The notes under the pieces: generated by a model
Seen by the model: the letters and a program-made list of their open reading frames with translations, nothing else
Database searches by the model: none
What the model was told of the DNA's origin: nothing
Assembly: GCF_964355755.1 (NCBI RefSeq)
Contig: NC_092676.1
Location: 4,012,288-4,076,287 of the forward strand
Source of the DNA: Antedon mediterranea
Lineage: Eukaryota; Echinodermata; Crinoidea; Comatulida; Antedonidae
Reading direction: 5' to 3'
DNA: 64,000 bases
Shown here: positions 27,263-63,968 of the stretch, piece after piece
How the letters are laid out: each line of letters begins with the position of its first letter
Numbering within the stretch: the first letter of the stretch is position 1
Program-made: the position numbers and the translations under genes

Positions 27263-27265
27263 AGT

Positions 27266-29914: not shown

Positions 29915-29916
29915 TT

Positions 29917-37654: not shown

Positions 37655-40600
37655 CTTCCATTTTGTATGCGTATTATCACATACGATTGTTACGTCGCAC
37701 TTTATAAGATTTGGCTGGTTTTGATCGCCGGACATCACTTCCATTTTGTATGCGTATTATCACATACGATTGTTACGTCACACTTTATAAGATTTGACTG
37801 GTTTTAATCGCCAGACATCGCTTCCATTTTGTATGCGTATTATCACATACGATTGTTACGTCACACTTTATAAGATTTGAATGGTTTTGATCGCCGGACA
37901 TCACTTCCATTTTGTATGCGTATTATCACATACGATTGCTACGTCGCACTTTATAAGATTTGAATGGTTTTGATCGCCGTACATAACTTCAATTTTGTAT
38001 GCGTATTATCACATACGATTGCTACGTCGCACTTTATAAGATTTGACTGGTTTTAATCGCCGGACATCGCTTCCATTTTCGTTGCATAGTATACATACGA
38101 TTGTTACGTCACACTTTATAAGATTTGACTGGTTTTGATAGGCGGACATCGCCTCCATTTTCGTTGCATAGTATCACATACGATTGTTACGTAGCACTTT
38201 ATCAGATTAGGTAGGTTTTAATCGCCAGTCATCGCTTCCATTTTCGTAGCATAGTATACATACGATTGTTACGTAGCACTTTATAAGATTTGACTGGTTT
38301 TAATCGCCGGACATCACTTCCATTTTGTATGCGTATTATCACATACGATTGTTATGTCGCACTTTATAAGATTTGACTGGTTATAATCGCCGGACATCAC
38401 TTCCATTTTGTATGCGTATTATCACATACGATTGTTACGTCACACTTTATAAGATTCGGCAGGTTTTGATCGGCGAACATCACTTCCATTTTCGTTGCAT
38501 AGTATCACATACGATTTTTACGTAGCACTTTATAAGATTCGGCAGGTTTTGATTGCCGGACATCACTTCCATTTTCGTTGCATAGTATCACATACGATTG
38601 TTACGTCACACTTTATAAGATTTGGCTGGGTTTGATCGTCGGACATCGCTTCCATTTTGTATGCGTATTATCACATACGACTGTTACGTCACGCTTTATA
38701 AGATTATCAAGGTTTTGATCGGCGGACATCGCTTCCATTTTCGTTGCATAGTATCACATACGATTGTTACGTCGCACTTTATAAGATTTGACTGGTTTTG
38801 ATTGCCGGACATCGCTTCCGTTTTCGTTGCATAGTATCACATACGATTGTTACATATAGCACTTTATAAGATTTGACTGGTTTTGATTGCCGGACATCGC
38901 TTCCATTTTCGTTGCATAGTATCACATACGATTGTTACGTAGCACTTTATCAGATTTGACTGGTTTTAATCGCCGGACATCGCTTCCATTTTCGTTGCAT
39001 AGTATCACATACGATTGTTACGTCACACTTTATAAGATTTGACTGGTTTTAATCGCCGGACATCACTTCCATTTTGTATGCGTATTATCACATACGATTG
39101 TTACGTAGCACTTTATAAGATTTGACTGGTTTTAATCGCCGGACATCACTTCCATTTTGTATGCGTATTATCACATACGATTGTTATGTCGCATTTTATA
39201 AGATTTGACTGGTTTTAATCGCCGGACATCACTTCCATTTTGTATGCGTATTATCACATACGATTGTTATGTCGCACTTTATAAGATTTGACTGGTTTTA
39301 ATCGCCGGACATCACTTCCATTTTGTATGCGTATTATCACATACGATTGTTACGTCACACTTTATAAGATTTGACTGGTTTTAATCGCCGGACATCACTT
39401 CCATTTTGTATGCGTATTATCACATACGATTGTTATGTCGCATTTTATAAGATTTGACTGGTTTTAATCGCCGGACATCACTTCCATTTTGTATGCGTAT
39501 TATCACATACGATTGTTACGTCACACTTTATAAGATTAGGCTGGTTTTAATCGCCGGACATCGCTTCCATTTTGTATGCGTATTACCACATACAATTGTT
39601 ACGTCACACTTTATAAGATTAGGCTGGTTTTAATCGCCAGACGTCACTTCCATTTTGTATGCGTATTATCACATACGATTGTTACGTCACACTTTATAAG
39701 ATTTGGCTGGTTTTGATCGCCGGACATCACTTCCATTTTGTATGCGTATTATCACATACGATTGTTACGTCACACTTTATAAGATTTGACTGGTTTTAAT
39801 CGCCGGACATCGCTTCCATTTTGTATGCGTATTATCACATACGATTGTTACGTCGCACTTTATAAGATTTGACTGGTTTTAATCGCCGGACATCGCTTAC
39901 ATTTTCGTTGCTTATTATTACTAACCCTTGATACGTCACACTTTGTAATGTTAGGCTGGTTTTGATCGCCGGACATCGCTTCCATTTTGTATGCGTATTA
40001 TCACATACGATTGTCTTTATAAGATTTGGCTGGTTCTGATCGCCGGACATCACTTCCATTTCCGTTGCATAGTATCACATACGATTGTTACGTAGCACTT
40101 TATAAGATTAGGTAGGTTTTAATCGCCGGACATCGCTTCCATTTTCGTTGCATAGTATACATACGATTGTTACGTCACACTTTATAAGATTTGGCAGGTT
40201 TTGATAGGCGGACATCGCCTCCATTTTCGTTACATAGTATCACATACGATTGTTACGTATAGCACTTTATAAGATTAGGTAGGTTTTGATCGCCAGTCAT
40301 CGCTTCCATTTCCGTTGCATAGTATCACATACGATTGTTACGTAGCACTTTATAAGATTTGACTGGTTTTAATCGCCGGACATCACTTCCATTTTGTATG
40401 CGTATTATCACATACGATTGTTACGTAGCACTTTATAAGATTTGACTGGTTTTAATCGCCGGACATCACTTCCATTTTGTATGCGTATTATCACATACGA
40501 TTGTTATGTCGCACTTTATAAGATCTGACTGGTTTTAATCGCCGGACATCACTTCCATTTTGTATGCGTATTATCACATACGATTGTTACGTCACATTTT

Positions 40601-40836
40601 ATAAGATTCGGTAGGTTTTAATCGGCGAACATCACTTCCATTTTCGTTGCATAGTATCACATACGATTGTTACGTCACACTTTATAAGATTTGGCTGGTT
40701 TTGATCGTCGGACATCGCTTCCATTTTGTATGCGTATTATCACATACGATTGTTAGGTCACACTTTATAAGATTTGACTGGTTTTGATCGCCGGACATCG
40801 CTTCCATTCTGTATTCATATGATCACATACGATTGT
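37655..40836. repeat. 83-bp satellite, block 3
   Basis: Continuation of the satellite after the second insert. The first 1.8 kb repeats block 2 monomer by monomer. The rest is a different mix of the same subtypes, with a degenerate patch near 39900-39950. Confidence 0.95.
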
Positions 40837-41165
40837 TTTTTTTTTTTTTTTTTTTATTCAGTATATTACACAGAGGCGCCTTACAAGATGGAACCATCTT
40901 AGCTTCAAGGCGCCTCAGATTAACAAATACAACATTTTAAAACAACTAACAGAAACATTAATTAAATCTTCCAGAATTAACAAGAAATTGTTGTACATAA
41001 TAAAATAATAAAGCATTTTCACAATTCGAAAGAAGATCGGAACCAAAAATAAAAATTTCACTTAAAAATGTAAAATTAAATGTTAAAGAAAAATCCTTGG
41101 CTAAGATATCCTCAATAATTGAGTTAGCGCTTACAAGTAGAATATCTCTTTGTGTATTATACATA
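40837..41165 (-). mobile_element. retroposed fragment (LINE 3' end) inserted in the satellite
   Basis: Begins with about 21 T (a poly(A) tail on the - strand) and continues into non-satellite sequence with the small palindrome AGGCGCCTTACAAGATGG...AAGGCGCCT. The satellite phrase ACATACGATTG occurs on both sides, consistent with an 11-bp target-site duplication from target-primed insertion. Confidence 0.7.
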
Positions 41166-41445
41166 CATATATTACATACGATTGTTACGTCACACTTTAT
41201 AAGATTTTACTGGCTTTGATCGCCGGACATCCCTTACATTCTGTATTCATATGATCACATACGATTGTTACGTCACACTTTATAAGATTTTACTGGCTTT
41301 GATCGCCGGACATCCCTTACATTCTGTATGCATATGATCACATACGATTGTTACGTAACACTAAGATTCGGCAGGTTTTGATCTCTGCACATCACTTTCA
41401 TTTTCGTTGCATAGTATCACATACGATTACTGTTTTATCTAATTG
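41166..41445. repeat. 83-bp satellite, block 4 (diverged edge)
   Basis: Last three or four monomers, more diverged than the centre (CTTTGATCGCCGGACATCCC, CTTACATTCTGTATTCATAT). Confidence 0.88.
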
Positions 41446-41726: not shown

Positions 41727-42032
41727 ACATTAGACTTGTGGATGGCAGCAATATTTATGAGGGACGAGTTGAAGTTTACGATGGCACAGAATGGGGTACA
41801 ATATGTGATGATGACTGGGACATCAACGACGCTCAGGTTGTATGTCGACAATTAAGACTAGGACCAGCTATCCAAGCTCCAATGCGAGCTCATTTTGGCC
41901 AAGGGACTGGTCCGATTATGCTTGATAATGTTCGGTGTTCAGGAAGTGAGACATTTATCACAGGCTGTCTTAATAGAGGAATGAGGGTACACGATTGTGG
42001 ACATTCTGAGGATGCTAGTGTTATTTGTGGAG
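41727..42032 (+). CDS. scavenger receptor cysteine-rich (SRCR) domain exon 1
   Basis: A single exon holds a whole SRCR domain: [68 protein letters not shown] and CGHSEDASVICG. Acceptor is TTATGCAG, donor GTAAAA; two bases, 101 codons, one leftover base, so the exon is symmetric (phase 1-1), the usual layout of SRCR modules. Six Cys are present; the two positions filled in eight-Cys domains (before EGRVEV and in the LxxGP segment) are Tyr and Leu, so this is a group A-like pattern. SRCR domains bind microbial or host ligands on secreted or membrane proteins. If the ORF began here there would be no signal peptide, so upstream exons are expected. Confidence 0.93.
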
Positions 42033-43188: not shown

Positions 43189-43494
43189 TAAACATTAGAC
43201 TTGTGAATGGCAGCAATATTTATGAGGGACGAGTTGAAGTTTACGATGGCACAGAATGGGGTACAATATGTGATAATAGCTGGGACATCAACGACGCTCA
43301 AGTTGTATGTCGACAATTAAGACTAGGACCAGCTATCCAAGCTCCAAGACAAGCTTATTTTGGTCAAGGGATTGGTCCGATTATGTTTGATAATGTTCAG
43401 TGTTCAGGAAATGAGACATCTATCACAGACTGTCCTAAAAGAGGAATGAGGGTACACTATTGTGGACATTCTGAGGATGCTAGTGTTGTTTGTG
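43189..43494 (+). CDS. SRCR domain exon 2
   Basis: Acceptor TTTCATTTAG, donor GTAAGT; phase 1-1, the same 306-bp length as exon 1. Encodes [59 protein letters not shown] and CGHSEDASVVCG with the same six Cys. Differences from exons 1 and 3 are a handful of substitutions, such as DDD/DNS/DNG before WDIND, MRAH/RQAY and HDC/HYC. It follows exon 1 in a tandem duplication that includes the intron. Confidence 0.93.
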
Positions 43495-44340: not shown

Positions 44341-44649
44341 TAAACATTAGACTTGTGGATGGCAGCAATATCTTTGAGGGACGAGTTGAAGTTTACGATG
44401 GCACAGAATGGGGTACAATATGTGATAATGGCTGGGACATCAACGACGCTCAAGTTGTATGTCGACAATTAAGACTAGGACCAGCTATCCAAGCTCCAAG
44501 ACAAGCTTATTTTGGTCAAGGGACTGGTCCGATTATGCTTGATGATGTTCAGTGTTCAGGAACTGAGACATCCATCACAGACTGTCCTAATAGAGGAATG
44601 AGGGTACACGATTGTGGACATTATGAGGATGCCAGTGTTATTTGTCAAG
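44341..44649 (+). CDS. SRCR domain exon 3
   Basis: Acceptor TTTCATTTAG, donor GTAGGA; two bases, 102 codons, one leftover base. Encodes [56 protein letters not shown] and [12 protein letters not shown]. One codon longer than its siblings at the 3' end. Its leftover G joins the two bases at the start of the LRR N-cap exon (46747) to make Val, so SRCR and LRR parts can be spliced in frame. Whether they are is not shown by the sequence. Confidence 0.93.
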
Positions 44650-44989: not shown

Positions 44990-46610
44990 CAGGGGTGGCG
45001 CCAGGATCTTCCCGACGCGGGGGCTACATTCCCCGACGAGGGGGCTATGCGAGCGAAGCGAGCATCACTAGGCTGGGGGACAGGGGGCCGCCAAGGGCCC
45101 CCGGTGGGGGTCCAGGGGGCGAAGCCTCCGGAAGCAACGCGTTCTAGCGTCATTTGAGGTCATTTTAATCAGATTTAGGGTAGCCATTTTTTTCCATTTT
45201 TTATAATGCATAAATAAAATACTAAAATACTGCGTGCAAAAAAACGATGCGCGATGACTGTTTCAATCTATATTTTTCAATTTAAAAAATAAAAGTTCAA
45301 AGAAAATTTAGAAAAATAGAGTTTTGGAGGTCCCGGAAATTGAACTTATTATACTTCAAAACATGAAACAAAATATATAAGTCCCTATAAAGGTTGTGAC
45401 TGAGCTAAGAAATGTTGAAAAATAGAGATGTTAGGTCCCGGAAAATGCACTTCCTTGTACTTCGAAATATGACCAGCTTTATTGTTGGGGCTGAGCTAAG
45501 AAACTGTTTAAAACTAGAGCTGCAGGTCTTCAAAAAATTGCATTTTATACTTCGGAAAAATCAGGCCTAGAGGCTTAAAAAAAGCAAGCGTAGACCTTTT
45601 TCAGTCGGGGAAATAAGTTTATTCCTCCCAAGTGTATGCGTGCGTACCATCTGGACTCCCGAGTGGTGAGAAATTCATGACATACAGGACATTGAAAATG
45701 TAATAACTTAGCTATAATAAGATGTTGGCTAAGCGAAAATGGCATGTTTTTTTGTTTAGTAATGGATGAAAAATGTTTTTTAGGTGCCCCACGGTACAGA
45801 AGGTTACTTGTAAAAAATTGGTGAACATACGAACAATTAACATAATTCGTTTTTGCTGTAGTGTAGCGTACGTCGACGCAGTACACGATGTAACCGTCAG
45901 TAAACTTCGCCTGGAAAATAACTACAGTACACATTTTGGTCCCTGGATGGAACATGATATCACGCGTCTCGACCCAACGTTGAACGATTCGTACAAAGGG
46001 ATACCGCCAGACAAGTGCGAACCTAGCTATTGTTTAGTAGTAAGTTAGATCGCTGGCAATAATGAATGCATATAAAGTGCATAATATCACTCTGACGTGC
46101 TCTCACGGTCAATGAAACGTCGCGGTTTTCTAGGCGCTGAAGCTAGCTACGAAGTGAACGCGAACGCTTTTTACTGTATATTATATTCCCCGACAAAAAG
46201 TACCCGTGTTCCCTTCGGTAACCGTCGGTAAACTTCGCCTAGAAAATAACTACATTACACATTTTGGTCCCTGGATGGAACTTGATATCACGCGTCTCGA
46301 CCCAACGTTGAACGATTCGTACTGAGGGATACCGCCAGACAAGTGCGTACCTAGCTAATGTTTAGTAGTAAGTTAGATCGCTGGCAATAAATGAATGCAT
46401 AAAAGTGCATAATAGCCCTCTGACGTACTCTCACGGTCAATGGAACGTCGTGGTTTTCTAGGCGCTGAAGCTATATGAAGTGAACGCGAACGTTTTTTAC
46501 TGTATATTATATTCCCCGACAAAAAGTACCCGTGTTCCCCGACGGGGGGGGGCTAGGCTCCCGACGAGGGGGTTAGAGCCCCCGTAGCCCCCCCGCTGGC
46601 GCCACCACTG
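44990..46610. mobile_element. non-autonomous hAT-like transposon, 1.62 kb
   Basis: Inverted ends CAGGGGTGGCGCCAG (left) and CTGGCGCCACCACTG (right), flanked by the 8-bp direct duplication CCACCAGT at 44982-44989 and 46611-46618. An 8-bp duplication and CAGGGGT-type ends fit hAT. Subterminal regions are G/C-rich with many small hairpins (GGGGGCCGCCAAGGGCCCCC). The interior has a 325-bp tandem duplication (about 45885-46200 and 46215-46530). No transposase; open frames inside are short and unlike any known protein. Confidence 0.88.
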
Positions 46611-46746: not shown

Positions 46747-46888
46747 TCAGATGCCCAACATATTGCACCTGTAATGTCCAGACGTGTTACTTAGCAAGTT
46801 GTTATAATAACACTAGATGTACTCAATGGAATGCAAATATACATACAGAACTTGTTGACTACAATGTATATGATCCAATAACAAGATT
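46747..46888 (+). CDS. LRR N-terminal cap (LRRNT) exon
   Basis: Encodes VRCPTYCTCNVQTCYLASC and on to DYNVYDPITRL. CPxxCxC at the start is the signature of the cysteine-rich cap before a run of LRRs in secreted or extracellular proteins. Acceptor ATTGTAG, donor GTAAGT; two bases, 46 codons and TT left over. The TT is completed by the first G of each LRR exon to give the first Leu of the repeat. More Cys than the usual four (six in this exon), which may mean an altered disulphide set. The phase fits SRCR exon 3 upstream. Confidence 0.85.
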
Positions 46889-47337: not shown

Positions 47338-47372
47338 TTGGGATTTGACCTATAACCAAATTAAGTACATGT
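47338..47372 (+). pseudogene. LRR exon remnant (5' half only)
   Basis: GGGATTTGACCTATAACCAA then ATTAAGTACATG matches the first half of the LRR exons. The TTTTACTTTTAAG acceptor is deleted to CATTCTTT, an extra T shifts the frame, and the second half and donor are gone, replaced by intron sequence (GTTGGTTAAACAATG). Confidence 0.8.
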
Positions 47373-48144: not shown

Positions 48145-48216
48145 GTCTTTGTACGATAACCAAATAAGTACATTGCAAGCCAATGCATTTGCTGGTTTGA
48201 CAGCATTGGAAACACT
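48145..48216 (+). CDS. leucine-rich repeat exon 1
   Basis: A 72-bp exon, phase 2-2, between CTTTTAAG and GTAAGTGT. With the TT carried in, it reads LSLYDNQISTLQANAFAGL then TALETL: one canonical 24-residue LRR (LxLxxNxIxxLxxxxFxGLxxLxxL). The outward positions of the beta strand are S, Y and D. It can be skipped or duplicated without altering frame. Confidence 0.92.
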
Positions 48217-49066
48217 GTAAGTGTATTGCTTATGTTTGCTAACTTTTATCAGTTTGGTTTTAATCTAGAAATTAAATTACAAATTATTTTGAATTGTTGA
48301 TTAAGCAATTATAATGGATTAATATTATTACATAATTGCACAATTTGTGATCGTATAAAAAATATCTTTATAAATCACAAGTTTTTAGTTCATCCACCAT
48401 GAATGAACTTTATTTTTGTGTAATACATAATAATTCTGAATTAATCTTAAATGTAAAATTTCACAATATAAATATCATTATAATGATTGTTATACTAATT
48501 AATTAGTATTTGTTTATGTAGTGATTTTGTTTTATGATAATAAAAATTATTAAAATATAAATATATATTTTATATTTTGACATCATTAAAATATTGATAC
48601 AATACAGTGCATGTATTGTAGGATCAATTGTAATAATGGACTAATAATATTTACCTTATGATTTCATGATTATTCACAGTAAAACAAATTTAAAAAGCAA
48701 CAATTTTGTAATTTATCCACCATGATTGAATTATTTATTTTTGTAATATATAACAATTGAAACTGAATTTACATTACATATTAGATAATACATTTATTAT
48801 ATGGTTGCTATCAAACAATTTGAATTTGTTGACATTTTGTTTTAAGAAAATATGTTATTCAAATAAATTTACCATATTTGTATTTTAACATAGTATATTT
48901 TGACATCACTAAAGTACATACAATAGAGTACATGCAGTATAACTACTGTATAATGCACAGGAATGTAGACATTTCAACATTTGAGGTGACAAGAAAAACT
49001 AAAATAATTTAAAAACAGCTTCGATATTGTGATTTACTTATACTGTGCATTCTTTTTACTTTTAAG

Positions 49067-49138
49067 GGATTTGGGCAGTAACCAAATAAGTACATTACAA
49101 GCCAATGCATTTGCTGGTTTGACAGCATTGGAAACACT
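49067..49138 (+). CDS. leucine-rich repeat exon 2
   Basis: Same layout and splice sites as exon 1, reading LDLGSNQISTLQANAFAGL then TALETL. It differs from exon 1 only in codons 2, 4 and 5 (Asp, Gly, Ser) plus one silent TTG/TTA change. Confidence 0.92.
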
Positions 49139-49942
49139 GTAAGTGTATTGCTTATGTTTGCTTACAGTTACTAATTTGGTTTTATATTATAAATTAAATT
49201 ATAAATTATTTTATATTGTTGGTTAAACAATGAAAATGGATTAATATTATTCTATAATTTCACAATTTGTGACCTTATAAAAAATATCTTTATAAATCAC
49301 TAGTTTTTACTTCATCCACCATGAATGAACTTTATTTTTGTGTAATACATAATAATTTTAAAAATAATATTAATTGTAAAATTTCACAATATAAATATCA
49401 TTATAATGATTGTTATACTAAATAATTAGTATTTGTTTATGTAGTGATTTTGTTTTATGATAATACAAATTATTAAAATATAAATATATATTTTATATTT
49501 TGACATCATTAAAATGTTGATACAATACAATGCATGTATTGTAGGATCAATTGTAATAATGGACTAATAATATGTATCAACATTTTTAAAATGTATCCAC
49601 CATGATTGAACTATTTATTTTTGTAAGATATAACAAAACTGAATCTGTATTACATATTAGATAATACATTAATTATATGGTTGTTAACAAACAATTTGAA
49701 TTTGTTGTAGACATTTTATTTTTAATAAAATAAGTTATTAAAATATATATACATTTTTACTTTAACATAGTATATTTTGACATCACTAAAGTACATACAA
49801 TATAGTACATGCAATATAACTACTGTATAATGTACAGGAATGTAGACATTTCAACATTTGAGGTGACAGAAAAACTAAAATAATTTAAAAACAGCTTGGA
49901 TATTGTGATTTACTTATAATGTGCATTCTTTTTACTTTTAAG

Positions 49943-50014
49943 GAATTTGTACAGTAACCAAATAAGTACATTACAAGCCAATGCATTTGCTGGTTTGACA
50001 GCATTGAAAACACT
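49943..50014 (+). CDS. leucine-rich repeat exon 3
   Basis: 72 bp, phase 2-2, reading LNLYSNQISTLQANAFAGL then TALKTL. Variable positions are Asn, Tyr and Ser, and the Glu near the end is Lys. Otherwise identical to exon 2 at the nucleotide level. Confidence 0.92.
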
Positions 50015-50725
50015 GTAAGTGTATTGCTTATGTTTGCTTACTTTTACCAATTTGGTTTTAATTTAGAAATTAACAAACTTTATTTTTTTGAATAATATTA
50101 TAATAATTCAAAATACATTTTTATTGTAACTGTCACAATATAAATATTATTATAACAAATGTTACTAAATAATTAGTATTTGTTTATTTAGTGATTTTGT
50201 TTTATGAGAATAAAAATTATTGAAATATAAATATATATTTTATATTTTGACATTAAAATATTGATACAATACAGTGCATGTATTGTAGGTTTGATTGTAA
50301 TAAGGGAGTAATAATATGTACTTTATGATTTCATGATTATTTATAGTAAAAATAATTTTAAAGTGAACATATTAAAAATGTATTCACCATGATTGAACTA
50401 TTTATTTTTGTAAGATATAACAATTGAACTGAATCTGTATTACATATAGATAATACATTTATTATGGTTGCTATCAAACAATTTTTAATTTGTTGTAGAC
50501 ATTTTATTTTAATAAAATAAGTTATTAAAATATACATTTTTACTTTAACATAGTATATTTTGACATCACTAAAGTACATACAATAGAGTACATGCAGTAT
50601 AACTACTGTATAATGTACAGGAATGTAGACATTTCAACATTTGAGGTGACAGAAAAATTAAAATAATTTTAAAACAGCTTGGATATTGTGATTTACTTAT
50701 ACTGTGCATTCTTTTTACTTTTAAG

Positions 50726-50797
50726 GGATTTGAGGGGTAACCAAATAAGTACATTACCAGCCAATGCATTTGCTGGTTTGACAGCATTGAAAACACT
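50726..50797 (+). CDS. leucine-rich repeat exon 4
   Basis: 72 bp, phase 2-2, reading LDLRGNQISTLPANAFAGL then TALKTL. Variable positions are Asp, Arg and Gly; Gln is replaced by Pro in STLP, the form most common in vertebrate extracellular LRRs. Confidence 0.92.
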
Positions 50798-51764
50798 GTA
50801 AGTGTATTGCTTATGTTTGCTAACTTTTAACAATTTGGTTTTAATTTCGAAATTAAATGAAAAATTATTTTACAAAGTTGGTTAAACAATGATAATGGAT
50901 TAATATTATTATATAATTTCACAATTTGTGATCTTATAAAAAATAACTTAAAAAATCAGTAGTTTTTTGCTCATCCACCATGAACAAATTTTAATTTTTT
51001 AAATATTATATAATAATTCAAAATAAATTTTTATTGTAAATGTCACAATAAAAATATCATTATAACAAATAATACTAAAACTAAATAATTAGTATTTGTT
51101 TATGTAGTGATTTTGTTTTATGAGAATAACAATTATTAAAATAGGAATATATTTTATATTTTAACATTAAAATATTGATACAATACAATGCATGCATTGT
51201 AGGATCAATTGTAATAATGGACTAATCATATGTACCTTATGATTTCATGATTATTTACAGTAAAAAGAATTTTAAAGTCAACATTATTTTTATTTGTAAT
51301 TTATCCACCATGATTGAAGTATATATTTTTGTAAGATATAACAATTGAAAGTGAATCTGTATTTAATACATAATAGATAATACATTTATTATATGGTTGC
51401 TATCAAACAATTACATTTGGTGAAGACATTTTATTTTAAGAAATTAAGTTATTAAATTATATTTACCACATTTTTATAAAACTGACAAAATGTTTCTAAG
51501 TAGGCCTAATCAATATTTGTTTATGTACATTTTTGTTTATTTTAACAAAATAAGTTATTAAAATATACATTTGTATTTTAACATAGTATATTTTGACATA
51601 ACTAAAGTACATACAATAGAGTACATGCAGTATAACTACCGGTACTGTATAATGTACAGGAATGTAGACATTTCAACATTTGAGGTGACAGAAAAACTAA
51701 AATAATTTAAAAACAGCTTGGATATTGTGATTTACTTATACTGTGCATTCTTTTTACTTTTAAG

Positions 51765-51836
51765 GAATTTGAGATGGAACCGAATAAGTACATTACAAGC
51801 CAATGCATTTGCTGGTTTGACAGCATTGGAAAAACT
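51765..51836 (+). CDS. leucine-rich repeat exon 5
   Basis: 72 bp, phase 2-2, reading LNLRWNRISTLQANAFAGL then TALEKL. Variable positions are Asn, Arg and Trp, with Arg also after the Asn of the ladder and Lys near the end. Confidence 0.92.
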
Positions 51837-52979
51837 GTAAGTGTATTGCTTATGTTTGCTACTTTTACAATTTGGTTTTAATCTAGAAATTAAATTACAA
51901 ATTATTTTGAATTGTTGATTAAGCAATTATAATGGATTAATATTATTACATAATTTCACAATTTGTGATTGTATAAAAAAATATCTTTATAAATCACTAG
52001 TTTTTAGTTCATCCACCATGAATGAACTTTATTTTTGTGTACATAATAATTCTGAATTAATCTTAAATGTAAAATTTCACGATGTAAATATCATTATAAT
52101 GATTGTTATGCTAAATAATTATTATTTGTTTATGTAGTGATTTTGTTTTATGAGAATAAAAATTATTAAAATATAAATATATATTTTATATTTTGACATT
52201 AAAATGTTGATACAACACAATGCATCCATTGTAGGATCAATTGTAATAATGGAGTAATATGTACTTTATGATTTTCTATAATTTCACAATTTGTGATCTT
52301 ATAAAAAAACTTTAAAAATCAATAGTTTTTTGCTCGTCCAACATTAACAAACTTTATTTTTTTGAATAATATTATAATAATTCAAAATACATTTTTATTG
52401 TAACTGTCACAATATAAATATTATTATAACAAATGTTACTAAATAATTAGTATTTGTTTATTTAGTGATTTTGTTTTATGATAATAAAAATTAATAAAAT
52501 AAAAATATATATTTTGACATTAAATATTGATACAATACAGTGCATGTATTATAGGATCAATTGTAATAATGGACTAATAATATGTACTTTATGATTTCAT
52601 GATTATTTACAGTAAAACCAATTTTAAAATCAACATTTTTAAAATGTATCCACCATGATTGAACTATTTATTTTTGTAAGATCTAACAATTGAAACTGAA
52701 TCTGAATTACATATAGATAATACATTTATTATATGGTTGCTATCAAACAATTTGAATTTGTTGACATTTTGTTTTCAGAAAATATGTTAATCAAATAAAT
52801 TTACAACATTTTTATTTTAACATAGTATATTTTGACATAACTAAAGTACATACAATAGAGTACATGCAGTATAACTACTGTATAATGTACAGGAATGTAG
52901 ACATTTCAACATTTGAGGTGACAGAAAAACTAAAATAATTTTAAAACAGCTTGGATATATTGTGATTTACTTATATTTA

Positions 52980-53023
52980 TTACCAGCCAATGCATTTGCT
53001 GGTTTGACAGCATTGAAAACACT
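52980..53023 (+). pseudogene. LRR exon remnant (3' half only)
   Basis: TTACCAGCCAATGCATTTGC through GCATTGAAAACACT and the GTAAGTG donor match the second half of the other exons, but the acceptor and first half are deleted. A cryptic AG at 52985-52986 would give a 37-bp exon in the wrong frame, so this exon is probably dead. Confidence 0.82.
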
Positions 53024-53289
53024 GTAAGTGTATTGCTTATGTTTGCTTACTTTTATCAATTTGGTTTTAATTTAGAAATTAAATGAAAAATTATTTTACA
53101 TTGTTGGTTAAACAATGATAATGGATTAATATTATTTATAAAATTTCACAATTTGTGATCTTGTAAAAACAAACTTAAAAAATCAATAGTTTTTTGCTCA
53201 TCCAACATGAATGAACTTTTTATAATATATAATATTTCAAAATGATTTTTTATTGTAAATGTCACAATATAAATATATTTTTGTAAATC

Positions 53290-53352
53290 AACAATTTCAG
53301 CCGTCGGGCTGCATGTTTTTTATTATATAAACCTGAATAAATAAATAAATAA
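53290..53352 (+). mobile_element. short LINE 3' end, strongly 5'-truncated
   Basis: CAGCCGTCGGGCTGCATG, then AAACCTGAATAAATAAATAA: a small hairpin followed by an (AATA)n tail, typical of the 3' ends of CR1/RTE-like elements. It sits at the switch between the direct and inverted copies of the LRR unit. Confidence 0.5.
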
Positions 53353-54092
53353 ATTATTACAATTGATCCTACAATACATGCACTGTATTGTATAAACATT
53401 TTAATGTCAAAATATAAAATATGTAATCACTACATAACAAATACTAATTATTTAGTATAACAATCATTATAATGATATTTATTGTGAAATTTTACAATTA
53501 ATATTATTTTTAATTATTATGTATTACAGAAAAATAAATTTCATTCATGTTGGATGAATTAAAAACTAGTGATTTATAAATTTATTTTTTATAAGATCAC
53601 AAATTGTAAAATTATGTAAATTATGTAATAATATTAATCCATTATCATTATACAGTTGTTGTACTGCATGTACTCTATTGTATGTACTAGTGATGTCACA
53701 ATATGATATGGGTAAATAAAAATGTATATTTTAATAACTTATTTTATCAAAATAAAATGTCTACAAAAAATTAAAATGTTTTGATAGCAACCATATAATA
53801 AATGTATTATCTATATGTAATACAGATTCGGTTTCAATTGCTATGTCATGGTGGATAAATTTAAAAATTGTTGATTTTAAAATTAGTTTTACTGTAAATA
53901 ATCATGAAATCATAAGGTACATATTATTAGTCCATTATTACAATTGATCCTACAATGCATTCACTGTATTGTATAAACATTTTAATGTCAAAATATAAAA
54001 TATATATTTATATTTTAATAATTTTTATTCTCATAAAAAAAATCACTACATAAACAAAATACTAATTATTTAGTAACATTTGTTATAATGGT
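53353..54092 (-). repeat. inverted copy of the LRR-array intron unit, exon missing
   Basis: Reverse complement of the array's intron phrases (ACAATTGATCCTACAATACA, AATGCATTCACTGTATTGTA, GTACTCTATTGTATGTACTA). The place where an LRR exon would lie, near 53650, has been deleted. Confidence 0.85.
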
Positions 54093-54966
54093 ATATATAT
54101 ATATATGGAAACACAAATATTTAAAAAAATACCAAAATTTATACAAAATATAAAAAAATTTGAAAAATTCAGTTAAAAAAATAAAATTATGTTAAAAAAA
54201 TTACAAAATTTATATACAAATGCATAGGCCTATATATGTAAATATTTATAACATAGCCATCTTCAGCGTGATCAGTTTAGGTACTGTTTAAATTAAGGAT
54301 TCTACTTATAGTAAGGGCAGGCGAGGTCTTAAGACGGTTAGTTCTACAAACAGGTATATTAATTAGGGGTTTATGGACTAATATGTACTTTATGATTCCA
54401 TGATAATTATTTACAGTAATTTTGTTTTAAGAAAATAAGAAATAAGTTATGAAAATATATTTACAAAAGTATATTTTGACATACTAAAGTATACAATAGA
54501 TGGATTACATGCAGTATAGTGTATTTACTGTACTACAATTTAGTTTTAATTAAAAAGGTAAATTAGAAATTGTATTTTACATTGTAGAACAATTATAACA
54601 AAATATTTAATATATAATTTCATTATTATGTGATTATAAGTTTAAACCCCACCTCACCAAAAAAAACCACAAACAACTGGTTTTTCGTATATGATAATAT
54701 AGGCCTAATAAATCAAATATCAATTTTCAGTTGTTATTTTACAATATAAATATCATTTAAAATATCATTTAAGTTAATTTTACTACATTTAGTATTTGTT
54801 TACTTTAACCAGAAAACAAACAAAAATAAAAGGGATAAATGCAGTGTTTATATTACCGTAAATCAATAGATAATTGGCAACTAACTTAATTAACTGCTAA
54901 AGCCCAAACTAGCAAGACCATAATGTGCATTATTTATCATATACTGTGTATTTTTTATCATTTAAG
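54093..54966. other. intron, low complexity; nothing coding recognised
   Basis: A/T-rich tracts (ATATATATATGG, AAAAAAATACCAAAATTTAT). One short tract (54365-54500) again resembles the array's intron sequence. Confidence 0.5.
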
Positions 54967-55041
54967 GTGGTTCATGAATGGTAACCAAATACACACATTG
55001 GAAGCCTATGCATTTGCCGGTTTGGAATCATTGACAGAACT
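54967..55041 (+). CDS. leucine-rich repeat exon 6
   Basis: 75 bp, phase 2-2, between ATTTAAG and GTGAGT, reading LWFMNGNQIHTLEAYAFAGL then ESLTEL. It is one codon longer than the array exons in the beta-strand region. It is closely related to exon 9 at 58020 and its surroundings are too, so the two are a duplicate pair. A Helitron follows in its intron. Confidence 0.88.
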
Positions 55042-55125
55042 GTGAGTATTTTTTCAATACTTGTACAAACTTCCTTATTTTTAAAAGAAACTTTATTTAT
55101 TGTTGTTTTAGAACTATTCTAATTA

Positions 55126-55935
55126 CTAGATGGTACGCTTGCTTCGCTCGCGTACCATCTAGGTCGTGCCCACAGATGGTTCTCGAATACATAATAATTT
55201 CAGCGTTAAAAAACTGGCGATTTCAAATGTACGTACCGCAGGACAATAATGTCGTTTACAGGAACGGATAAATAGACACTGTGATTTATGTACTAAACTA
55301 AAATTAGCACCCTGGGATTTACTTCCGAAAGAGAAACTTGTCACAAAATGAGACCAATTGTTTAAGTCAAATTTAAACAAACTTAATTTGTGTTTTATAT
55401 GTAACATTAGGGTTGAGGGATGGAAGAGGAACAATTTTTAAATATATTCTTTATCCATTTAGTAACGAAATATTAATTGTTTTCATGTTTTACAAATAAT
55501 GTACCACTAAACCATGGAGGTATTTATACCCCCATGACTAAACACAAGTAAAACATTGCGATGTAATACTTTGTTGAAACTATCACCGTCCTAGTCGATT
55601 GAAAAGTACAGTACGTATAACGATACATCACTACGACGTGTATATGTTTATATAATGTAAAACAATTTGTGAAAACCACCTCTATTCGGGGCAAATCATA
55701 AATTCGATTTAATCGTCAATAAATATTAAATTATCTAACTCAACTTAATTAGTAGGCCTAATGGTTTTCAATTGTTTCTTAGAGCTAATTCATACTTAAG
55801 TTGGTTCCTACCCTACCCACCAAAGTTGTTCTGCGTTTAGGGCATGTGATGCACTGTAGGCCTATCCTCTACTAAACATTCTAGAAATAACGCGCTATTT
55901 ACCGAATTTTGCCCTTACGTAAATTTATATATAGA
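55126..55935 (-). mobile_element. non-autonomous Helitron, family 1 copy C (internally deleted)
   Basis: Same ends as copies A and B: the CTAG hairpin at 55126-55162 and the TC end at 55935, flanked by T and A in the element's sense. About 640 bp of the interior is missing, and a 30-bp palindromic piece with ATGGAGG...CCCCCATG is added near 55514-55545. The paralogous intron after exon 9 gives the empty site at 58179/58180. Confidence 0.88.
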
Positions 55936-56162
55936 TTCCAGTTGATACTGTATGTCATACTGCCCTAATATTGCTGTAACACCGGTGCCAATCAATTTAC
56001 ATCTAACAACATGAATTATATTATTGTTTATATACATGAAAATTTTATTCAAAGATCTCTTTTGTCAATACATTTTTTATTAATGAAAATTTACAATCAT
56101 ACAGTATCAAAACAACTTGGATGTATATGATTTTAATTACTATGAATCATTTTATTTTGAAG

Positions 56163-56234
56163 ACGTTTGAATGGTCACAAAATCAGTACATTGCCAGCTA
56201 ATGCATTTAATGGTTTGACAGCATTGACAACACT
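56163..56234 (+). CDS. leucine-rich repeat exon 7
   Basis: 72 bp, phase 2-2; acceptor TTTTGAAG, donor GTAAGT. With TT carried in, the first codon is TTA (Leu): LRLNGHKISTLPANAFNGL then TALTTL. Diverged from exons 1-5 but with the same framework. Confidence 0.88.
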
Positions 56235-57563
56235 GTAAGTGTTTTATTTAGTTCATAATACTTTTATAATTATTTTTTTTAATTATACATTTTAAAATAA
56301 AATTTAATGAGAAAAAAGATAGATGCTGTTAATTTTACTCATTTGTTCTTTAGAATGGTTCCGAAACGTTGATCTTTTTTTGTCATTACATTTTATTTTA
56401 AAGTTATGTAGTAAACGTCTCTTAATTTGTAATTATGAATTCCTTTTTAAATTATAGTTAAATGTAAATCATGCAATTTTCTAAATGCAAATTTTAATGT
56501 AATGGTCCTATAGAGTAATTGTTTCACTTCATTTAATAATTAATATTTGATTAAAACTCCGAACAATGGGTCTTGATGTCCCCTTAAGGAGGTCCAGTAA
56601 TATCATTTTCAGTATTTCTATCAAAATTATATTTACTGTCAAAAAGTATTTAGGTAACCGGTTACGGGATTATAAATACATGAAAAACCCCTTATTGTCA
56701 AAAATTGTCTGTGTGCCTATGGTACAGTAATATACGTTTATACAAATGTATTGATTTGCAATGAATGGAACATTCCAAATTATTTGGTTTAACCATACTT
56801 GCATACCTCTATGGTTTAACACAAGTAGGTAAATTGATAGACCCTTGGAGAATAAACAGAAATAGTACTGTAATGCTATACAATACTGCAAATAGGTATT
56901 AACCACTTTTGATCGCCATTTGAATCAAAAGTGTGTTGTACTGTTAGATATAATATAAACAAATATACTAATAAACTTTATCACTTATTATAAACACATA
57001 ATAATATAATACTTTATTACTGTCAGTTGTTTCTCAACGTTTGTATTAATTAATAATTACAAAAATATAAACGTATTAGTGGTCTTTAAATGTACTTTAC
57101 TATTTCAATCGACCATGAGACAGTGACAGTTTATAAAGTATTAAATCGGAAATGTTTTACTCTAATTAGTGGTATATTATTTATAGTATTAAGTAATGAA
57201 GGAAGAAAGTTTGTGGAAACAAACATATTGAATTTGAATTTAAATAATAGGTGTTTAAGACTATCTTCTGTTAGTTGAGGAACATAGATTTAAGTATTTT
57301 TAAAAATTGTATTTATTTTGTTAATGCAAATTTTTAGAATTGTTAATTATACAAAAAAAATTGTTTTTTTTTCCTGTCCTCTTTTGGAAGTCTGTTTAAT
57401 AAAAGGCCAAGTAATTAAATAGAAAAGACACACAAAGACTTTTGGGCGAGTGTCCGTTATGAGAGTTGTCCATTTACGAATGGTGTCCACACAGGGAGTT
57501 TTGGACCATTACTTAGGAAAGATAAAGCATCAAACTTTACAGTTTATTCTTTATTCTTTGTAG
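56235..57563. other. intron; nothing coding recognised
   Basis: AT-rich. The segment at about 57240-57410 recurs at 59130-59285 (GTGTTTAGAC/GTGTTTAAGA, CATAGATTTAAGTA, TTTTCCTGTCCTCT), another trace of segmental duplication within the locus. A 62-codon frame near 57090 has no support. Confidence 0.5.
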
Positions 57564-57635
57564 AAGGTTGGACGATAACCAAATAAGGAAATTGCCAGCA
57601 AATGCATTTAATGGTTTGACAGCATTAAAAAAACT
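57564..57635 (+). CDS. leucine-rich repeat exon 8
   Basis: 72 bp, phase 2-2; acceptor TTCTTTGTAG, donor GTGAGT. Reads LRLDDNQIRKLPANAFNGL then TALKKL. Most like exon 7 in the NAFNGL part. Confidence 0.88.
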
Positions 57636-58019
57636 GTGAGTGTATCTCAAATTTATCCCAATTCATTAATTTACGTTTTAGAATAATGACAGATTCATAT
57701 TATTTAGTTTATCATTTCATAATGTGATCTTGTAACAAACAATTAATGAGAGGCAATGATCACCCAAGATCCATGAAATAACACCTTTGTACCAATAGGG
57801 TTACATGCTCTAGCATAATTTTAAAGGAAAAAAATTCACAAGAAAAGTTTAAGACTAATTAGCCGTGGATGGAAGAAGAAATATAATCAGAAAAATAAAG
57901 GGGTAAACACAGTGTTTATATACGGTAAGGTGTAGAAATCAATAGATAATTCACAACTAACTTAACTGCTCAAGCGTAAGCTAGCAAGACTATATACTAT
58001 GCATTATTTATTATTTAAG

Positions 58020-58091
58020 GCGAATGAATGGTAACCAAATACACACATTGGAAGCCTATGCATTTTCTGGTTTGGAATCATTGACAGAACT
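58020..58091 (+). CDS. leucine-rich repeat exon 9
   Basis: 72 bp, phase 2-2; acceptor TTATTTAAG, donor GTGAGT. Reads LRMNGNQIHTLEAYAFSGL then ESLTEL. Near twin of exon 6; its downstream intron carries the empty Helitron site. Confidence 0.88.
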
Positions 58092-59518
58092 GTGAGTATT
58101 TTTTCAATACTTCACTTTACCAACTTTCTAATTTCAAAAGAAATTGATTATTGTTTAGAACCATTATAATGTCAAATTATTCCAGTTAATACTGAATGTC
58201 ATATAGACTGCCCTAACAAACATTGAGTAAACAGTGTCAGTCAATGGAATTACAATGAACAACATGAATTATATTGTGATCCTTTTGATTCCAAGATATT
58301 TTTTGTCACAAAAAAAGAAATAATGACATTTTACCATAATACTGTATCAAACAACTACTATATATATATATATATATGATGTATATATTATATGATTTTC
58401 CTTAGTATGAATTATTTTATGTTGTAGTCAGTTAAGAAAATAATATCATAAAGTAGTTAAGTGTACTGTAGATTTGAATCCAATTTGTTTGCTAAATATA
58501 AACGAAATATTTAACAAAGACACTAAGTTAGGGAAGGGCCGGACATATTGATAACCTTTGTAAAAATACAAAGAAAACAAATAGGTGTTTTATATAAACT
58601 AAGATATTTGGTTTCTTTTAAAATAAATATTAATTTTAATATATAACTTCTTTATTTTACCGTTATTATTTATGGTATAGAAGTCTGGGGAAACACTCAT
58701 ATAATGTTACATTTTCTGATTTCATTTTATATAATTGTTTAAACAACTTAATATTATAGATGTTTAAAAGTTATGTTATATGTTTTGTGTTTTAATTATT
58801 ATCATTTGTATTTATTATTTATATGCTATATTCATTTAATAACTATATCGGCGTCTATTAAAAAATTATTTATGTGTTACATTTCGAAGGCCAAATCTCG
58901 CCAACCGAAAGCTTTTTATTTAGTCGTTTTGTCAAATAAGTAAATCATGTAATTATTATTATTTTACATTTTGTAAAAAAAGTCAAAAAGACTATGCATT
59001 ATATTAAATAAAATAAACAGAAGGGCGTGAAAGATTACTGCAATTTTTGACTAAAAATCATGATCCTAATACATTAAAAGTTTTAATTTCTTTTGTGAGT
59101 TGTTGAAGCTTCCATAACATGAACAAGTGTTCGTTGCTATAGGTGTTTAGACAATCTCCTGTTAGTTGAGCAACATAGATTTAAGTAGTTTTAAAAACTG
59201 TATTCATTGTGATAATGCAAGTTTTTAGAAGTTAATAATACAACAAAAAATGTTTTTTTCCTGTCCTCTCTTGAAAGTCTGTTTCAATTATTAAATAATA
59301 AATTATTTTACATTGTTGGTTAAGCAATGACAATGGATTAATCACAATTTGTGGCTTATAAAAGATAATTTTTAAAAATCACAGTTTTTAGTTCATCTAT
59401 CATGAATGAACTTAATTTTTTTTTTAATTATTCCAAATCATTTATCCCCAAGTCAATTACAGTTTTCAACAACACCATTACTAGATACTTTGGTTCTGTT
59501 TAAGTAAATTGTTGTGTA
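58092..59518. other. intron; nothing coding recognised
   Basis: AT-rich, including a (TA)n run near 58361 and the duplicated segment at 59130-59285. The part from 59286 to 59415 again resembles intron sequence of the LRR array (AATTATTTTACATTGTTGGT, TTCATCTATCATGAATGAAC), but the exon is absent. Confidence 0.5.
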
Positions 59519-60963
59519 CTAGATGGTACGCTCGCTTCGCTCGCGTACCATCTAGGTCGTGCCCACAGATGGTTCTCGAATACATAATAATTTCAGCATT
59601 AAAAAACTGGCGATTTCAAATGTACGTACCGCAGGACAAATACATGTCGTTTACAGGAACGAATAAATAGACAATTTGATTTATGTACTCAACTAAAATT
59701 AGCACCCTGGGAATTACTTCCGAAAGAGAAACTTTTCACAAAATGAGACCAATTGTTTAAGTCAAATTTAAACAAACTTAATTTGTGTTTTGTATGTAAC
59801 ATTAGGGTTGAGGGATGGGGAAGAGGATGGGTGCAAAGAGGAACAATTTTTAAATATATTCTTTATCTATTTAGTAACGAAATATTAATTGTTTTCATGT
59901 TTTACAAATAATATACCACTAAACACAGTAAAACATTGCGATGTAATACTTTGTTGAAACTATCACCGTCCAAGTCGATTGAAATAGTACAGTACATGTA
60001 ACGATACATCACTACGACGTGTATATGTTTATATAATGTAAAACAATTTGTGAAAACCACCTCTATTCGGGGAAAATCATAAATTCGATTTAATCGTCAA
60101 TAAATATTAAATTATCTAACTCAACTTAATAAGTAGGCCTAATGGTTTTCAATTGTTTCTTAGAGCCAATTCATACTTAAGTTGGTTCCTACCCTACCCA
60201 CCAAAGTTGTTCTGCGTTTAGGGCATGTGATGTACCGTAGGCCTATCCTCTACTGGTTTTACAACGCTACTCATGCCAGTGAGAGAAGGGTGATGATGTG
60301 GGTGGTTTAATTGCAATAATAAAGATTTGTACATAATATACGGCGAGTGAAAACTCTAGCTCATTATCCGTTTAAAAAAAAATGTATATCCAACCACTGC
60401 AGCACAGATTGAAAAAAAAAATGGATCGAATTTCTGTTATGAGTATACAGTACTTGCCTTTACGACGCCTGAGGGAATAGACACTTGAGGAACAGAGATT
60501 GGAATGTTCCATTCATCGCAAATCAATACATTTGTATAAACGTATATTAAATCTATCAAAATAATATTTTTTAAAGAAAATCGGCCTTTCTTCAACATTA
60601 TGATGCTGTACTCGAGCTGTTCAACCGGTTTTCAGCTATTAAAAACAATTATCGTAGGAGGAAATAGGAAAATGCGAAGCATCCTCGTATTATTGTGTGC
60701 GGGTATTTTTCAAGACGGAAATCCATTAGACAGTGTATACCACGATCGAAAAACACCCCTATTTGGGGCAAATCGTTGAACCTAAATTCGTTTTAATCGT
60801 CAATAACTAATTATCGAACTCAATTTAATTAGTAAACAGGGTTACATCAAGTGGTTAAAATCAGTACCGAAAGTACGAACCAACTTTATATACCATCGAG
60901 TAAACATTCTAGAAATAACGCGCGATTTACCAAATTTTGCCCTTACGTAAATTTATATATAGA
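59519..60963 (-). mobile_element. non-autonomous Helitron, family 1 copy B
   Basis: Same length (1,445 bp) as copy A and the same ends in reverse: hairpin and CTAG at 59519, TC end at 60963. In its own sense it lies between A and T. It sits in the intron between LRR exons 9 and 10. Confidence 0.87.
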
Positions 60964-63890: not shown

Positions 63891-63968
63891 GCCTGGCGTG
63901 TGGGACTCTAATCAAATACCTACAATAGAAGCCAATTCATTTAATGGTTTGACATCACTGCTACAACT
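63891..63968 (+). CDS. leucine-rich repeat exon 10
   Basis: 78 bp, phase 2-2; acceptor TTTTTCTTCAG, donor GTGAGT. With TT carried in it reads LPGVWDSNQIPTIEANSFNG then LTSLLQL. Two codons longer than the standard exon in the beta-strand region. The LRR run therefore continues past the window; the C-terminal cap and any membrane anchor are not in view. Confidence 0.85.

Follow-up and report, generated by a model that had tools for sequence, protein, structure and literature searches.

The window, a stretch of 64,000 nucleotides taken here as a whole, contains an array of LRR exons that are nearly alike except at a few codons, and this raises the question of what keeps the exons so similar in most places and so different in a few. 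An earlier note on this DNA had read the pattern as diversifying selection on a recognition surface. Based on the data described below, the array very probably belongs to a family of LGR-class (relaxin-receptor-like) GPCRs, diversified in the germline and under diversifying selection, and encodes hypervariable (HV) LRR modules of their ectodomains.

The array and its gene

The five HV exons all have AG/GT splice sites, are each open in one frame and start one base into a codon, confirming the five 72-nt, phase 2-2 exons of the earlier note; each exon specifies one LRR module of 24 residues. When joined, they match the Pfam family LRR_8 (7e-45). Rfam at gathering thresholds has no match within the window, and COX1 has none in the assembly. 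A degenerate exon-start pattern with at most one mismatch was found at 166 places in the whole genome and its reversed control at 0, and the exon pattern is therefore far beyond chance. HV exon clusters lie on C3, C5, C7 and C9 among the 100 of these places that were listed.

Table 1. Features of the predicted receptor gene
Feature	Position	Strand	Remarks
SRCR domain 1	41741..42028	+	Pfam PF00530 match
SRCR domain 2	43203..43493	+	exon end in phase 1, read by eye
SRCR domain 3	44358..44648	+	exon end in phase 1, read by eye
LRR N-terminal cap exon, CPTYCTC	46747..46888	+	phase 1 to 2; motif and splice phase
Decayed 5' part of HV exon	47338..47371 (approximate)	+	by eye
HV LRR exon 1, SLYDNQISTLQANAFAGLTALETL	48145..48216	+	72 nt
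HV LRR exon 2, DLGSNQISTLQANAFAGLTALETL	49067..49138	+	72 nt
HV LRR exon 3, NLYSNQISTLQANAFAGLTALKTL	49943..50014	+	72 nt
HV LRR exon 4, DLRGNQISTLPANAFAGLTALKTL	50726..50797	+	72 nt
HV LRR exon 5, NLRWNRISTLQANAFAGLTALEKL	51765..51836	+	72 nt
Decayed 3' part of HV exon	52976..53026 (approximate)	+	donor site kept, core at 52986
75-nt LRR exon (WFMNGNQIHTLEAYAFAGLESLTEL), tentative	54967..55041	+	by eye
LRR exon RLNGHKISTLPANAFNGLTALTTL	56163..56234	+	
Membrane-proximal type LRR exon RLDDNQIRKLPANAFNGLTALKKL	57564..57635	+	
Membrane-proximal type LRR exon RMNGNQIHTLEAYAFSGLESLTEL	58020..58091	+	
78-nt LRR-like exon, tentative	63891..63968	+	by eye
7TM exon, ~8.2 kb beyond window	L001:8229-9290 (C7:4084516-4085577)	same orientation as LRR exons	

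The pieces listed in Table 1 were joined on the basis of order, orientation and phase. Read in this way, the predicted gene consists of three SRCR domains, an LRR N-cap, the five HV LRR exons, further exons of LRR type and, at its end, a 7TM exon of the rhodopsin class. The cap exon connects the SRCR part to the LRR exons by phase, and the predicted splice phases match along the series SRCR, LRR cap and HV LRRs. By motif, a CPxxCxC cap exon is present in gene A and five other genes. For the genes on C5 and at C7-3.19 Mb, the roughly 7.7-8.4 kb before the LRR cap showed no SRCR, arguing that SRCR is not general in the family. Before SRCR domain 1 no 5' part of the gene was found, neither a signal peptide nor an LDLa; one LDLa motif gave nothing in the window, and none of the 150 PF00057 hits scored, out of 956 candidates, lies near C7:4.05-4.48 Mb.

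The 7TM exon matches Pfam 7tm_1 (6.5e-31), and its best PDB sequence is RXFP1 (relaxin receptor 1; 165 bits, E 2e-47), followed by FSHR (112 bits) and LGR4 (53 bits), in a set of chains that did not include GRL101. With 125 of 242 candidates scored, the genome has at least 120 7TM matches, at least 54 of them uninterrupted, with 290 or more of 317 residues covered and an identity of 54% or higher; in at least 10 genes on three chromosomes (C5, C7 and C9) the 7TM is 92-100% identical.

Variation is concentrated at a few codons

Codons are numbered here without the split codon, and codons 1, 3 and 4 are thus codons 2, 4 and 5 of the earlier note. Pairwise among the five window exons, the nine HV bases differ in 49 of 90 comparisons (0.54) and the remaining 63 exon bases in 22 of 630 (0.035). 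The variable triplets S-Y-D, D-G-S, N-Y-S, D-R-G and N-R-W are as had been claimed, and so are the other replacements (Q/P once, Q/R once, E/K in two exons, T/K once) and the two silent changes, TTG/TTA and AGG/AGA. The claim that the introns are nearly unchanged was too broad: it applies to the proximal 180 bp upstream (pairwise difference 0.020) but not to the 60 bp downstream (0.106) or to upstream positions 181-600 (0.112), and distal divergence is about 11% in the window array and about 23-24% family-wide.

The unfiltered family set was collected by the intron acceptor only, from 29 searched sequences (the window and 28 loci). There were 74 acceptor matches, 73 with an open 72-nt exon and GT; 59 are distinct. 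Across the 73 unfiltered exons, codons 1, 3 and 4 reach a nucleotide diversity of 0.434, compared with 0.0435 for the other exon bases and 0.0135 for third bases of the framework, the underlying pairwise counts not being independent. The HV codons have pN 0.556 and pS 0.047 (pN/pS 11.8), and the 16 least variable codons pN 0.020 and pS 0.017. A previous set of 68 exons agrees (0.430 at HV codons, 0.039 elsewhere, pN/pS 11.7), with part of its framework constancy built in because the framework filter itself fixed several framework residues. The acceptor-only set adds three exons that fail this filter, and the outcome is the same.

Codons 4, 3, 1 and 23 rank highest by entropy, with 23 barely above 11 and 22, and these four make up the x.x.xx pattern flanking the strand leucines. 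The four most variable residues are the concave-face positions of this motif; change is focused on the codons of the concave beta-strand residues, with very little silent change. Codons 11, 14 and 22 also vary, each chiefly between two residues. Codons 3 and 4 are associated (0 of 500 shuffles reach the observed value), codons 1 and 4 weakly so (18 of 500), and codons 1 and 3 show no clear association (57 of 500); 500 shuffles gave no association of codons 1, 3 or 4 with codon 11.

Selection versus other sources of variation

The LRR motif by definition has variable x positions, and ordinary degeneracy, with these positions free and the framework alone constrained, would need no positive selection. 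The P control exons (n=16, mixed subclasses pooled) are likewise more variable at HV-equivalent than at other codons (0.335 and 0.119). However, relaxed constraint cannot surpass the neutral rate, and HV diversity (0.43) is far above that of the proximal intron (~0.06) and also above that of the distal intron (~0.24). The pN/pS of the HV codons speaks against degeneracy as well, and the x positions are nearly fixed in the N control exons of the same genes (n=9; 0.068 at HV-equivalent codons, 0.054 at others). The corresponding values for the W control exons, also from the same genes (n=8), are 0.194 and 0.088, and an HV-like contrast is much weaker in membrane-proximal LRR exons. Comparison with introns, silent sites and control exons led to the rejection of generic LRR degeneracy, which is extremely improbable.

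The family-wide intron values, 0.02-0.07 over the 180 bp upstream and 0.23-0.24 distally, are thus below the HV value in both parts. Together with the contrast within the exon and the pN/pS ratio, this strongly supports the proposal of diversifying selection on a concave recognition surface. Closely related exons show the same difference: where the proximal intron diverges by 0.5-1.5% (6 of 2016 pairs), the difference per HV base is 0.315, and where it diverges by 1.5-3% (62 pairs), 0.41; 12 pairs with 0.5-2% distal intron divergence have 0.231. Among the 8 closest pairs there is mostly no difference at HV codons; in a C5/C7 pair the flank differs at 7 of 695 bases, yet five codons differ. Gene conversion may be partly behind the low intron divergence. 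A functional element in the conserved 180 bp was considered and rejected, since other clusters match only part of it: in the C3 cluster the match is confined to the last 26-35 bp, and in the C7-8.27 Mb cluster it consists of up to about 79 bp (76%) and a separate piece of 41 bp. Given this partial sharing, recency or homogenisation suffices for the rest.

Targeted mutagenesis of the HV codons, by a mutator or from a template, could replace selection on random mutation as the source of the pattern. Diversity-generating retroelements (DGRs) produce NNY codons, and the change seen here is confined largely to nine bases whose third-base positions are mostly T, C and T, outwardly NNY-like. The details point the other way. 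The HV third base is changed in 26 of 204 codons of the 68-exon set (27 of 219 unfiltered), always giving a codon for E, R or W, and a silent T/C exchange occurs in 0 of 178 pyrimidine-ending HV codons (0 of 192 unfiltered). The adjoining AAC of the Asn ladder is retained in 71 of 73 unfiltered exons. In addition, the 16 exons of the C3 cluster have the same pattern (0.456 at HV codons, 0.049 elsewhere) with different third bases. Because every third-base change alters the encoded residue and T/C silent changes are absent, a DGR-like mutator is disfavoured, and targeted mutagenesis in general is very improbable; selection remains the preferred explanation.

Turnover of the arrays

The earlier note also proposed that the exons can be added or lost. 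Gain and loss, and also exchange, of exons are supported by array sizes of about 5-14 HV exons across genes, by the two decayed partial copies on either side of the window array, and by sharp recombination breakpoints inside the arrays, which are mosaic. Genes A, B and C have 0-5 mismatches across stretches of 4.6-12.1 kb; between A and C there is a breakpoint at about 50864, followed by 12.1 kb free of mismatches.

Such near-identity means that an assembly artefact is possible for those copies, and one could suppose that the arrays as a whole are artefacts or dead repeats. The decayed copies in the window would fit a dead array, as would the C3 cluster, near which only 7TM fragments with stops were found (125 of 242 candidates scored); the C3 cluster may for this reason not be a working receptor gene. 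Nevertheless, the HV clusters are spread over C3, C5, C7 and C9 (among the places listed), 71 of 74 core motifs lie within intact open exons with AG/GT sites, 73 of 74 acceptor matches are followed by an open exon, and the near-identical 7TM exons of at least 10 genes are intact. Dead arrays are also not expected to combine saturated replacement with almost no silent change. An artefact or dead array is thus hardly credible as a general explanation, and a germline-diversified receptor family accounts better for the data.

Possible function of the receptors

In the proposed mechanism, the SRCR, cap, LRR and 7TM pieces would be spliced into one transcript, and the concave face would bind ligand, as is common for LRR binding sites (PMC4561518). 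Unequal crossing-over or gene conversion would spread and regroup modules, selection would favour new residues, and signals from every binding face would pass through the constant 7TM to a single G-protein pathway. The most likely ligand class, though somewhat short of an even chance, is variable non-self molecules (microbes, competitors, allogeneic tissue); external chemical or peptide cues are the next candidate, appreciably less likely.

Transcripts might also carry differing subsets of HV exons, giving a repertoire per gene by alternative splicing. The collected exons are equal in length and phase and have very similar splice sites, and alternative splicing of tandem LRR exons is reported for Ectocarpus ROCO genes (PMC11378527). 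However, uniform splice sites are equally compatible with constitutive inclusion, published LGR ectodomains include some with 9, 10 and 17 LRRs (PMC4561518), and the 180-bp element, only partly matched in the C3 and C7-8.27 Mb clusters, shows no special regulatory element. Combinatorial exon choice is therefore unlikely. It is similarly doubtful that one individual draws a large repertoire by HV-exon splicing and/or frequent array recombination, which would make a GPCR an anticipatory, antibody-like recognition molecule outside vertebrates. If the preferred reading of germline diversification is true, GPCRs too have evolved the design of a constant signaller with a variable binder, here built on the scaffold of a hormone receptor. 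With a framework that hardly differs even at silent sites, the family would be an unusually clean natural experiment on how recombination and selection build binding faces.

Comparison with known systems

The open-licence literature that was searched yielded no hypervariable LRR exon arrays in a GPCR. Lamprey VLRs consist of LRR modules in which the framework is nearly constant and the concave residues vary; they arise by somatic assembly of cassettes and lack a 7TM. The analogy to VLR modules drawn earlier holds for the concave variability and constant framework, and a VLR-A structure is among the sequence matches; it fails for the receptor type, since the predicted gene around the array has a relaxin-receptor-like 7TM at its end. 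Unlike in lampreys, the germline LRR exons are already in matching phase between cap and 7TM, and a 7TM exon takes the place of a stalk with GPI anchor or secretion. Dscam also has tandem arrays of duplicated ectodomain exons. These Ig-domain exons are alternatively spliced (PMC11378527), whereas such a choice would be hypothetical for the HV exons.

Type C LGRs (RXFP1/RXFP2, PMC4561518, and GRL101) share the Cys-rich N-cap, LRR ectodomain and 7TM. Ambulacrarian species are reported to have a single ortholog for each of the type C receptors (PMC8286064); the present family differs in its dozens of paralogues, its HV arrays and the SRCR domains of some members, and no LDLa was found in the window. 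Tetrahymena has tandem LRR exons of equal length with phase-2 introns, variable exon number and ectopic recombination between genes (PMC6564038). The arrays described here are alike in all these respects, but the Tetrahymena exons are 90 bp and belong to a ciliate, and in the text of that paper the terms 'concave', 'gpcr' and 'positively selected' are absent.

The closest published anatomy, judging from Teng et al. 2024 (PMC11378527, which cites Zambounis et al. 2012 on the same genes), is that of the brown-algal LRR-ROCO genes. There too each LRR is encoded by one 72-bp phase-2 exon and exons are shuffled; alternative splicing is shown, immune recognition is proposed, and positive selection acts on four concave sites (14, 16, 18, 19). 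The spacing of these sites (0, +2, +4, +5) is that of codons 23, 1, 3 and 4 here. The algal proteins carry a ROC-COR GTPase, whereas the C-terminal exon here is an animal GPCR 7TM, and the likeness is probably convergent. Exon length, phase and the distances between the four selected residues all agree, which would make this a striking convergence.

Anatomy of the predicted gene

At the positions given in the earlier note, the array is made up of five 72-bp LRR exons with AG/GT splice sites and phase 2-2, each open in one frame; these hypervariable (HV) exons are flanked by two decayed pieces. Upstream lie three SRCR exons (the donors of the second and third are phase 1, as read by eye) and a Cys-rich exon for the N-terminal LRR cap, and LRR exons of other types follow downstream. 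Beyond the window is a 7TM exon that matches Pfam 7tm_1 (6.5e-31), with relaxin receptor 1 as its nearest PDB sequence (165 bits, against 101-112 for the FSH, LH and TSH receptors and 53 for LGR4). Because the SRCR, cap, LRR and 7TM pieces lie on a common strand with compatible phases, they are read as a single predicted gene, gene A, in the order SRCRx3 - cap - HV LRRs - other LRRs - 7TM. The 5' start of this gene was not found; upstream is a satellite of about 7 kb, which may separate or hide the first exons. The tandem pair before the cap exon is perhaps a dispersed repeat, since similar text seemingly occurs in L002, a piece fetched from elsewhere in the assembly. The window also contains an open 90-bp repeat and retroelement-like remains (Table).

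Table. Locations of features in the window (C7:4012288-4076287) and in pieces fetched from elsewhere in the assembly (L-numbers; C3 and C7 are chromosomes)
Feature	Location	Phase	Remarks
HV exon array	window 48145-51836		five exons
Cap exon of gene A	window 46747-46888	phase 1 -> phase 2	upstream of HV array; variable loop
Other cap exons with variable loop	L024; L027; L028; L029; L030		
7TM exon	L001:8229-9290		~8.2 kb past window end
83-bp tandem satellite	window 33427-40837 (+ 41166-41428)		~70 copies; just 5' of SRCR exons
~328-bp tandem pair	window 45890-46539		93-97% alike; between SRCR and cap exons
90-bp repeat x13	window 6174-7343		99% match; one frame open for 299 aa
ORFs resembling a broken LINE-type retroelement	window 26568-30650, - strand		endonuclease/reverse transcriptase-like text, by eye
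LRR exon cluster	L031 (C3:10813000-10822900)		
LRR exon cluster	L032 (C7:8274000-8280000)		
SRCR, LDLa and 7TM matches near one another	C3:6.97-7.17 Mb		7TM about 43% identical to query

Variation among the HV exons

HV exons were compared in a set of 68 (54 distinct; copy B, a near-identical copy of gene A, omitted) picked by a filter on framework residues. This filter builds in some constancy, and the count was therefore repeated with exons picked by the intron acceptor alone (at most 3 mismatches to a 22-base consensus). Of 74 such acceptors, 73 lead into an open 72-nt exon with GT behind it, and 59 of these exons are distinct. Omitting the split codon at the exon start, the variable codons are 1, 3 and 4 (2, 4 and 5 in the earlier note), at which 8, 8 and 9 amino acids occur (chiefly Y, S, D, N, G, R and W), whereas codons 8, 9, 10, 13, 15, 18 and 21 each encode a single amino acid in 73/73. 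HV codons of the unfiltered set have a diversity of 0.434, against 0.0435 for the remaining exon bases and 0.0135 for framework third bases (filtered: 0.430, 0.039 and 0.0065). Upstream intron diversity, taken from the filtered set, is 0.02-0.07 per 20-bp bin over 180 bp and 0.15-0.37 beyond, and downstream it is 0.03-0.12 over 60 bp and 0.22-0.50 beyond; the distal means are 0.24 and 0.23, respectively (64 exons with full flanks).

The earlier inference of diversifying selection is supported, in that replacement change is concentrated at the HV codons: by NG86 on the 59 distinct exons, pN is 0.556 and pS 0.047 there, compared with 0.27 and 0.09 at codon 23, 0.20 and 0 at codons 11, 14 and 22, and 0.020 and 0.017 at the 16 other codons (filtered: 0.55/0.047 at HV codons, 0.015/0.010 at the 16 others). 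Codons 4, 3 and 1 rank highest in variability, followed by 23, which is barely above 11 and 22 (1.11, 1.10 and 1.08 bits; unfiltered). In repeat order, codons 23, 1, 3 and 4 are the x residues of xLxLxx that line the concave beta-sheet, the face that commonly holds the binding site of LRR proteins according to PMC4561518. Most HV codons end in T or C (178/204 filtered, 192/219 unfiltered), and no T/C exchange occurs at any HV position in either set. The others end in A or G (26 filtered, encoding E, R or W; 27 unfiltered), and AGG/AGA is the sole silent polymorphism at HV codons.

Other LRR exons of the same genes, likewise chosen with framework filters, served as controls. HV-equivalent bases differ at 0.068 vs 0.054 elsewhere in the N type (n=9), 0.194 vs 0.088 in the W type (n=8) and 0.335 vs 0.119 in the P type (n=16, a pool of three or more subclasses). 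Hypervariability is therefore strong in HV arrays and weak to moderate in other LRR exons. A cluster of 16 exons on C3, in part with other residues and codons, shows the HV pattern too (0.456 vs 0.049), and the 7TM matches listed around it are all broken pieces. The L031 and L032 clusters are of this kind as well, with partly different residues and codons at the same positions; only broken 7TM pieces lie around them among the matches listed.

Rate of change relative to introns

Exons were also compared as 2016 pairs, which are not independent of one another. Where proximal introns diverge by <0.5% (8 pairs) there are 0.014 differences per HV base, rising to 0.315 at 0.5-1.5% (6 pairs) and 0.412 at 1.5-3% (62 pairs), with a plateau at about 0.44. 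Most pairs with the least proximal intron divergence have identical HV codons, which is what fresh duplicates should show. The rise is slower when pairs are binned by distal intron: 0.099 (<0.5%, 9 pairs), 0.231 (0.5-2%, 12), 0.333 (2-5%, 22), then 0.42-0.45. Under either binning, HV bases initially outpace introns about tenfold or more. One C5-C7 pair has flanks differing at only 7/695, yet five codons have changed.

Turnover of the arrays

Copy B, 119 kb from gene A, has 1 mismatch over 5.6 kb of array, and none, with one gap, over 4.6 kb at the 7TM end. Gene C, 260 kb from gene A, matches it from 50865 to 63013 without mismatch (one gap) and has 5 mismatches in 8.8 kb of the 7TM region, but on the 5' side of about 50864 the match breaks off sharply and gene C carries a different HV set; thus, array content has changed while the 3' constant part remained nearly identical. 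A and C share an identical last HV exon, so the change is ascribed to exchange and not to point mutation here, and it reads as unequal crossing-over or conversion, the breakpoint lying immediately 3' of HV exon 4. Other pairs are mosaic units, in which one flank is identical for ~400 bp and the exon and opposite flank differ. The near-identity of A, B and C may reflect assembly error, but the cross-chromosome results are independent of these copies.

The family across the genome

In the assembly searched (354 Mb, 18 contigs; 125 of 242 candidates scored), a 7TM query gave at least 120 matches. At least 54 (counted from the table of matches) are uninterrupted, span at least 290/317 residues and have at least 54% identity, and at least ten, on C7, C5 and C9, are 92-100% identical. 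The exon-start pattern TTTTAAGGNNTTTGNNNNNNAACCAAATAAGTAC occurs at 166 places with at most 1 mismatch (100 listed), and its reversed control at none. In the fetched pieces, intact HV exons number about 5-14 per gene when they are assigned to genes by position. Intact exons hold 71 of 74 core motifs, a count that leaves out copies lacking the core (at least one, in L013); the remaining three are a motif truncated at the locus end, one whose exon has lost its donor, and the decayed copy in the window.

The cap exon likewise occurs in gene C, the related gene D, and the C5, C7-3.19 Mb and C9 genes. Its inter-cysteine loop varies (TCYLASC, TCYSDDC, TCSWDDC, TCYSASC, KCNTADC, TCEDDC) and is perhaps a second variable surface. 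SRCR matches precede the arrays of A, B, C and D; in the C5 and C7-3.19 Mb genes, the 7.7-8.4 kb preceding the cap showed none. The C3:6.97-7.17 Mb region looks as if it held a related LGR type retaining both SRCR and LDLa.

Proposed function and relation to known systems

The anatomy, the concentrated replacement change and the mosaic arrays can be read directly from the DNA. We infer from them that each gene would encode one GPCR whose signalling domain is constant and whose concave face is covered in variable residues, that modules would be regrouped by recombination, and that new faces would be continually favoured by selection, which implies that the ligand itself may be fast-changing. 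Non-self recognition is our tentative preference for the role of such receptors; chemosensation is the less likely alternative, and part of the expectation is unassigned. The SRCR domains of some members would fit non-self recognition without proving it. The analogy drawn earlier to lamprey VLRs holds for the binding face and fails for the protein, which is a predicted GPCR.

The closest published anatomy is that of brown-algal LRR-ROCO genes, with 72-bp phase-2 LRR exons and positive selection at concave-side sites 14, 16, 18 and 19, a spacing equal to that of codons 23, 1, 3 and 4 here (PMC11378527). Tetrahymena has arrays of 90-bp phase-2 LRR exons reshuffled by ectopic recombination (PMC6564038), and amphioxus adhesion GPCRs contain SRCR (PMC2246102). 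A search of open-licence literature found no published account of GPCRs with arrays of HV LRR exons. For type C LGRs, the relaxin receptor/GRL101 class, PMC8286064 reports one ortholog of each per ambulacrarian species; the present expansion is therefore lineage-specific or of another lineage.
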